A DNA stretch of 64,000 nucleotides, taken from contig NZ_RBIQ01000007.1 in assembly GCF_003634105.1 (NCBI RefSeq), forward strand, positions 1,302,001 to 1,366,000. Reading direction: 5' to 3'. This document shows positions 17,895 through 18,994 of this stretch, in pieces; the first letter of the stretch is position 1, and each line of letters starts with the position of its first letter. Made by a program: the position numbers and the translations under genes. The notes under the pieces are model-generated. The model had not been told where the DNA came from. It searched no databases and worked only from the letters and a program-made list of their open reading frames with translations. This DNA is from Maribacter vaceletii (lineage in GTDB: Bacteria; Bacteroidota; Bacteroidia; Flavobacteriales; Flavobacteriaceae).

Positions 17895-17979
17895 GAGCCT
17901 CTTTTCTTAAAAAAAATATAAAATTATAGGCTAAATACCAATAAGTGTTAATGTAATAGTTAAAGTAAGTTAAAGCTTG

Positions 17980-18009
17980 TTGTTGTAAAAGTAGTATACA
18001 CTACATTTG
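17980..18009 (+). promoter_or_regulatory. Flavobacterial promoter of the candidate small RNA
   Basis: Overlapping TTG triplets (17980-17982, 17983-17985) precede TACATTTG (18002-18009) by 19 or 16 bases. This is one of the best TTG...TAnnTTTG matches in the window. No ATG-initiated ORF follows before the terminator at 18086-18117. Confidence 0.65.
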
Positions 18010-18014
18010 TATAA

Positions 18015-18117
18015 CATAAGGGGTGGTTCCCTTATAACTTTAAGTATTGGTTTTTCATAATTTAAAGTTTGGTTGGTTATTTAGGAAAAGCCCAGTTTTA
18101 AAACTGGGCTTTTTTTA
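18015..18117 (+). ncRNA. Candidate small RNA, about 100 nt, three hairpins
   Basis: The unit lies between a consensus promoter (TACATTTG ending 18009) and a strong intrinsic terminator, with no ATG in between. The predicted transcript starts with hairpin ATAAGGG/CCCTTAT (18016-18035) with loop GTGGTT. A second stem, ACTTTAA/TTAAAGT (18037-18043 with 18062-18068), has a U-rich loop, and the terminator hairpin follows. Unpaired parts repeat GGTT, including TTGGTTGGTT at 18069-18078. It is independent of the upstream patatin gene and is followed by a separate operon. Alternatives are a 5' leader of the DUF3108 operon with attenuation. I cannot assign it to a known RNA family. Confidence 0.6.
18086..18117 (+). 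terminator. Strong terminator ending the candidate small RNA
   Basis: AAAAGCCCAGTTT and AAACTGGGCTTTT form a perfect stem running into seven T residues. It stands 190 bases after the patatin gene and 100 bases before the DUF3108 gene. Confidence 0.88.
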
Positions 18118-18153
18118 TACAATACTTTGGAACAAATTTTGTTTAAGATATTG

Positions 18154-18214: not shown

Positions 18215-18994
18215 ATGAAAAAAATTATATTCTTATTTTTCTTATTCATAAGTTTATTTAGTAACGCACAAAATCAAAAATCTTCATTTAAATCAGGAGA
18301 GTGGCTTAAATTTCGTATGCATTATGGTTTTTTAAATGCTAGTTATGCCACCTTACAAGTTAAAAATAGTACCATAAATAATAAACCAGTATACCATGTT
18401 GTAGCGCATGGAGAAACTACAGGTTTTGCAAGTGTATTTTTTAAAGTAGATGATACATATGAGAGTTATTTTGATAAAAAAGATGGAAAGCCATACCGTT
18501 TTGTTCGCAAAATTAATGAAGGAGGTTATAAGAAAGATGTTGAGATAAATTTTGATTATAAGAAAGATAAGGCATTATTAAACGATAAAAAGAACAAGAA
18601 AAAGCTTAATTTTGACCTTCAAGATAGTATACAAGATTTAATATCTGCTTTTTATTACCTTAGAAACAATTACAATGTTCAAGATTTAGTAAAAGGAGAA
18701 GCAATTACATTAAAAATGTTGTTTGATGATGATGGCGTTTTTAATTTTAAATTAAAGTATCTTGGAAAAGAAGTGGTTAAGACAAAATACGGAAAGGTAG
18801 AGTGCCTTAAATTTAGACCTTTAGTTCAATCAGGAAGAATATTTAAAGAGCAAGAAAGTTTATCTCTTTGGGTGTCTAATGATGATAATAGAATACCAAT
18901 AAGAATAAAAGCAGACATAGCGGTTGGTTCTATAAAGGCAGATTTAGATGGGTATAATGGTCTTAAACATCAGTTTAAAATTATAATGGACTAA
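18215..18994 (+). CDS. DUF3108 domain-containing periplasmic protein
   Basis: A 259-residue protein with signal peptide (ending SLFSNAQ) and the DUF3108 fold over most of its length: FKSGEWLKFRMHYGFLNASY near the start and KYGKVECLKFRPLVQSG near residue 195, ending in a beta-rich segment. DUF3108 proteins are periplasmic beta-barrel-like proteins in Gram-negative bacteria whose role is not established. It heads a tight rightward run with tryptophan dioxygenase-like (7-base gap), M23 peptidase and pgi genes. Confidence 0.88.
   Translation: MKKIIFLFFLFISLFSNAQNQKSSFKSGEWLKFRMHYGFLNASYATLQVKNSTINNKPVYHVVAHGETTGFASVFFKVDDTYESYFDKKDGKPYRFVRKINEGGYKKDVEINFDYKKDKALLNDKKNKKKLNFDLQDSIQDLISAFYYLRNNYNVQDLVKGEAITLKMLFDDDGVFNFKLKYLGKEVVKTKYGKVECLKFRPLVQSGRIFKEQESLSLWVSNDDNRIPIRIKADIAVGSIKADLDGYNGLKHQFKIIMD

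Follow-up and report, generated by a model that had tools for sequence, protein, structure and literature searches.

A well-supported RNA gene lies between a patatin/Omp85 protein gene and a DUF3108 protein gene in the window, the whole 64,000-nucleotide stretch of Maribacter vaceletii DNA analysed here. Our preferred reading, to which we assign a probability of about 0.52 from comparisons of sequences, is that the gene would encode a free-standing, trans-acting sRNA of ~100 nt that pairs with mRNA start regions. The gene status itself is well supported because conservation drops outside the RNA, stem 1 and the terminator covary, its synteny is kept, and it possesses a −7 box and a terminator of its own.

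Conservation and structure of the RNA gene

The two stem-loops, the GGTT repeats, the perfect terminator hairpin and the run of seven T that a first-pass annotation had read from the sequence were all located at 18014–18116 (Table 1), and its remark that the RNA contains no ATG is borne out for the + strand of 18010–18117. The tail that separates stem-loop 2 from the terminator is G/U-rich.

Table 1. Positions within the window of the RNA gene, its parts and neighbouring control elements
Feature	Position	Strand	Basis
sRNA gene	18014..18117	+	conservation, synteny, covariation; start predicted, end set by the terminator
Three GTTAA direct repeats, putative activator site	17947..17974	+	kept in 26/28 related upstream regions, window included
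TAnnTTTG −7 promoter box TACATTTG	18002..18009	+	present in 24/28 related regions, window included
Stem-loop 1, ATAAGGG/CCCTTAT, loop GUGGUU	18016..18035	+	fold; both-side changes at 4/7 pairs
Stem-loop 2, ACTTTAA/TTAAAGT	18037..18068	+	fold; near-invariant
UUUCAUAA presented by stem-loop 2	18053–18060	+	complement of UUAUGAAA
Unpaired tail UUUGGUUGGUUAUUUAG with GGTT repeats	18068..18084	+	TTTGGTTGGTTA invariant; related element in other 3′ ends
Intrinsic terminator	18086..18116	+	sequence; both-side changes in 8/12 pairs
Terminator hairpin GCCCAGTTTTAAAACTGGGC	18090–18109	+	sequence
Seven-T run	18110–18116	+	sequence
Sigma54-like −24/−12 box TTTGGAACAAATTTTGTTT, probable separate DUF3108 promoter	18126..18144	+	28/28 related regions with up to 4/19 substitutions allowed; reversed word 1/28
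DUF3108 gene, neighbour outside the RNA	18215..18994	+	PF11306, E 6.7e-63

Among 20 other genera carrying the first RNA form, a non-random set drawn from 30 DUF3108 loci (the home locus plus the 29 loci that ranked next by protein match, 28 of these 30 carrying the RNA core), mean identity to the window was 99.5% over the 47 nt of stem-loop 2 and tail and 96.3% over the RNA core without terminator, versus 71.7% for the DUF3108 coding sequence, 71.0% for the spacer 3′ of the terminator, 67.9% for the promoter region and 56.6% for the flank further upstream. The RNA is thus kept far better than its flanks, the opposite of the outcome that had been named as speaking against an RNA gene, namely unconserved stems and loops between conserved genes. 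A second RNA form, represented by seven loci, retains a mean of 82.7% identity in stem-loop 2 and tail, and the form found in Flavobacterium keeps the 3′ elements with small changes in length, some of its sequences differing at the tip of stem-loop 1.

The fold of 18015–18117 has a predicted energy of −37.2 kcal/mol, compared with −19.0 ± 3.1 for shuffled sequences (z −5.9; none of 200 as good). Without the terminator, z falls to −2.6 and 4 of 200 shuffles are as good; because this value is just moderate, folding energy alone is insufficient as proof of a gene. In an alignment of 32 sequences, changes on both sides occur in 13 of 28 pairs (71 cells), a result that none of 500 shuffles equalled, and the covariation score of 0.280 drops to at most 0.107 when the partner is slid by one to three columns. 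The expected compensatory changes are found in stem 1, where 80.6% of cells hold a standard pair at the four outermost positions, and in the terminator; stem 2 is little informative in this respect because it hardly varies. The TTTGGTTGGTTA element in the tail is invariant in a set of 32 sequences. Three of four representatives folded singly form all three hairpins, and the best fold of the fourth, a Flavobacterium-form sequence (L107), lacks stem-loop 1. In four loci of this form (L105, L107, L108 and L128) the GGUGGUU tip of stem-loop 1 is lost and the 3′ module is unchanged, hinting that stem-loop 1 may be dispensable or redirected there. The RNA's terminator is not among the listings of a generic terminator scan.

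We propose that the RNA is transcribed from the TAnnTTTG promoter, ends at its own terminator, and is probably switched by a regulator that would bind the triple GTTAA repeat. The promoter had originally been described as TTG together with TAnnTTTG; the −7 box recurs in most related regions (Table 1), but a TTG 16–23 nt above it is present in just 7 of 28.

The 3′ module in other transcripts and its possible pairing with start regions

Weak matches to the RNA model away from DUF3108 genes revealed that a second half resembling that of the RNA occurs at the 3′ ends of other transcripts. This module, UUUCAUA...UUUGGUURGUUARUU, terminates several messages, those of hsp20 among them. The pattern TTTCATA followed after 2–24 nt by TTTGGTTRGTTARTT was matched 48 times across 42 of 249 family genomes, and one of these matches (in G101) is the DUF3108-side RNA itself; the reversed control gave none. 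The exact pattern is absent from the home genome, where the tail has TTATTT. An intrinsic terminator follows directly in 25 of 30 module loci fetched, compared with one of 30 in each of two controls, taken 300 nt further on and from shuffled sequence. One recurring form accounts for 17 of the 30 loci, all with a terminator, and 8 of the remaining 13 have one as well. In six loci of the recurring form the reading frame ends MVEIS* at the element itself, and this form looks, by sequence, like an Hsp20 3′ end; the three upstream proteins tested by Pfam (L381, L395, L402) are Hsp20 (PF00011). The presence of one 3′ module in the RNA and in stress-protein messages suggests a shared RNA control element.

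Several further observations concern the distribution of the module. Hsp20 or Hsp20-like 3′ ends with the module and then a terminator occur in several genera (L365–L369, L371, L381, L395, L402), and in one recurring Hsp20-like form UUUCAUAA overlaps the stop codon. Short RNA-like loci of relatives (L363, L373, L097 and, less exactly, L372) carry an GGTTGGTTAGTT tail and a terminator, with TTTGGCA...TTG(C) boxes of the sigma54 type upstream as judged by eye; they may represent further sRNAs of this class that depend on RpoN. The 15-base tail word, one mismatch being allowed, is no commoner in the home genome than its reversal (7 versus 6 sites). Four of the seven sites run into a terminator by inspection: this RNA and the 3′ ends of clpP, of a lipoprotein-like gene and of a gene with a SIMPL match below the cut-off. 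The 3′UTRs of clpP and the lipoprotein-like gene (L380 and L376, 1501–1515) read TTTGGTTGGTTA and then a terminator. On its own, the shorter word GGTTRGTTA shows no association with terminators: across 864 kb of home sequence, 5 of its 36 sites are linked to one, compared with 5 of 25 sites of its reversal and 11 of 64 sites of four permutations.

In the preferred reading, stem-loop 1 would be a 5′ accessory hairpin, and the working part would be the near-invariant 3′ half, in which stem-loop 2 presents UUUCAUAA and is followed by the unpaired tail UUUGGUUGGUUA. Read as their reverse complement, AACCAACCAAA ... UUAUGAAA, the two elements have the leader-then-start-codon order of an mRNA; likewise, the reverse complement of the module places AACCAA ahead of UAUGAAA, as in an mRNA start region. 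The most likely consequence of pairing across the start regions of mRNAs that begin AUGAAA would be a block of translation, and hsp20 messages, along with some others that close with a similar 3′ half, may release sRNAs of the same reach.

Pairing statistics gave mixed results. For the 708 ORFs in 864 kb of home sequence, the mean duplex energy between tail and start regions was below that of every one of 25 shuffled tails. Of three other genomes, two gave a value below all 40 shuffles, and in the third 5 of 40 were as low. Among its 15 permutations, AACCAA ranks first in the leaders of ATGAAA genes across four genomes, occurring in 31 of 426 such genes versus 52 of 1276 others (nominal p 0.007, uncorrected). 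Control regions taken from coding sequence, however, give pairing with the tail roughly as good as that of start regions. Perfect Watson-Crick matches of 8 or 9 nt between start regions and the tail were not significantly more numerous than those to shuffled tails in any of four genomes; in the best case, 51 of 200 shuffles were as high. The 40 best pairings of the home sample include 17 signal-peptide-like genes, versus 9.3 ± 2.7 expected, an excess that was not repeated in other genomes, where 6, 13 and 13 of 40 shuffles were as high. For stem-loop 1, a target signal was absent from the home sample. Profile searches of the home genome for Hfq and RRM_1 (PF00076) found neither, although the control searches were positive in 5 and 2 of 14 named genomes, and the Bacteroides control was positive for PF00076.

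The lack of an exact-seed excess speaks for the main rival to start-region pairing, which we consider possible though not probable. It holds that stem-loop 2 and tail serve mainly as a site for an RNA-binding protein, or for a factor that protects 3′ ends, common to the RNA and to hsp20-type messages, in which case the RNA would either be an sRNA that is stabilised and uses a different seed or, in the manner of CsrB, act as a sponge for protein. Protein binding would fit the occurrence of related modules, with variable spacing, ahead of the terminators of unrelated transcripts, and also the near-invariance of both arms and the loop of stem-loop 2, which exceeds what pairing requires. Against it stand the element order, which suits an anti-start-region layout, the over-representation of AACCAA leaders before ATGAAA, and the absence of an Hfq or RRM_1 match in the home genome.

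Beyond the pairing sRNA itself, one may imagine a wider Flavobacteriaceae RNA network that operates without Hfq or RRM proteins and is built on one portable module (UUUCAUA, UUUGGUURGUUARUU and a terminator). Its users would be the stand-alone sRNA and sRNAs freed from the 3′ termini of messages for proteostasis (hsp20, clpP). In mRNAs for envelope proteins the module would grip both the leader and the start codon, and protein-folding stress would in this way lower the export load. We offer this extended scheme as speculation and think it rather unlikely to hold in full.

Distribution of the RNA and its position relative to DUF3108

The RNA is found in all eight genomes of the home genus, the home genome included. 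A strong match (E < 1e-9, strict filters) is present in 39 of 149 family genomes, a lower bound in which one match (G071) is partial. RNA model R2 was built without base pairs and scores sequence alone. A larger tally of 154 of 299 was not used as a prevalence because it includes weak, module-only matches. In a second genus the core pattern, with at most three mismatches, occurs in 317 of 398 genomes and its reversed control in none. We take this genus to be Flavobacterium because the core word in named genomes belongs mostly to Flavobacterium among the stretches listed (80 of at least 118), the same 80 also including Myroides, Paenimyroides and some metagenome bins under other titles. The RNA is thus widespread in the family, at a lower bound of 39 of 149 genomes. 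An order-wide search gave matches in 27 of 196 genomes; the four matches outside the family (L095, L098, L099, L100) lack the GGTTGGTTA core and look like plain terminators.

In 37 of the 39 strong-match genomes the RNA lies 29–313 nt upstream of the DUF3108 gene on the same strand, and in the second genus all 30 loci fetched have a DUF3108 motif 196–334 nt downstream. Such constancy would suit a leader or attenuator acting in cis on the DUF3108 gene, a reading that we nonetheless regard as improbable, since a strong terminator and a separate promoter-like box intervene and the association is not universal. Two of the 39 genomes are exceptions: G028 has one copy, away from DUF3108, and G030 has three copies, none of them near its DUF3108 gene. 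The region upstream of DUF3108 in G028 (L044) has no core match, yet by eye it contains a similar box. A DUF3108 match itself is found in 147 of 149 family genomes, and two genomes (G231, G185) have two close-set RNA matches each. The occurrence of the RNA away from DUF3108 in two genera (G028, G030) implies that it is a separate gene rather than just a leader. This position, together with the drop in conservation outside the RNA, the covariation, its own −7 box and terminator and the separate box before DUF3108, upholds the original proposal of an independent sRNA of about 100 nt.

The box at 18126–18144 is labelled sigma54-like after the −24/−12 consensus, and its recurrence in related regions (Table 1) suggests that DUF3108 may be under RpoN control. 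A sigma54 motif has been reported in F. psychrophilum (PMC9723704).

That the conserved feature is instead the other strand, as a start region with the eight-codon frame MKNQYLKL, is very improbable: its ATG has a typical leader context on the antisense strand, but by eye the frame is not kept in other RNA forms, a T-run follows the hairpin solely when the + strand is read, and covariation is seen in stem 1 and the terminator.

Relation to known RNAs

To our knowledge, few sRNAs have been described in Flavobacteriaceae. In other bacteria, 3′UTR-derived stress sRNAs of the CpxQ type come from stress-gene messages that end in a conserved seed-like module and a terminator. The hsp20 messages with module and terminator resemble this arrangement, their processing to a short RNA being putative here. 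CpxQ uses Hfq, whereas Hfq was not found in the home genome, and the present RNA bears on how base-pairing RNAs act in bacteria without Hfq. Its 47 nt, near-frozen across 20 genera and usually next to one fixed gene neighbour, offer an easy experimental handle.

The comparison with Rfam that had been advised, Flavo-1 included, identified no family at the gathering threshold in scans of the window, in which all matches were sub-threshold. The best such score in the RNA region was that of MicC (26.3 bits versus 90 needed), and Flavo-1 was absent from the 26 sub-threshold matches of that region. Flavo-1 is described in PMC9723704 as a computationally found RNA motif that is widespread in Flavobacteriaceae. 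The two are alike as RNA motifs of this family, but the window has no Flavo-1 match at the gathering threshold. The article texts searched contained no description of this RNA; F. columnare sRNA candidates are listed in a supplement of PMC5395568.

The closest parallels in the family are the Rfp sRNAs of F. psychrophilum, especially Rfp18, which according to PMC9723704 is stand-alone, has a strong predicted structure and is conserved in its genus, as is the RNA described here; a homologue of an Rfp sRNA is expressed in F. columnare (same source). Rfp18 is said there to pair via its third stem-loop, whereas the third hairpin of our RNA is the terminator. It is possible that the RNA is identical to Rfp18, or to Rfp11, 13 or 15; F. 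psychrophilum is not among the 80 loci listed of at least 118 core-word stretches.

FopS and GibS of Bacteroides are short sRNAs with a terminator end and a conserved single-stranded seed; they have paralogues, one of them 3′UTR-derived, and act near the start codons of outer-membrane protein mRNAs (PMC11697453). The seed of FopS lies towards its 5′ end and its partner is the RRM protein RbpB (PMC11697453), whereas the module of the present RNA lies in the 3′ half, the home genome has no PF00076 match, and no Rfam family matches at the gathering threshold. The FopS system nonetheless resembles the action proposed for our RNA, in that a short, terminator-ended sRNA acts near start codons (PMC11697453).
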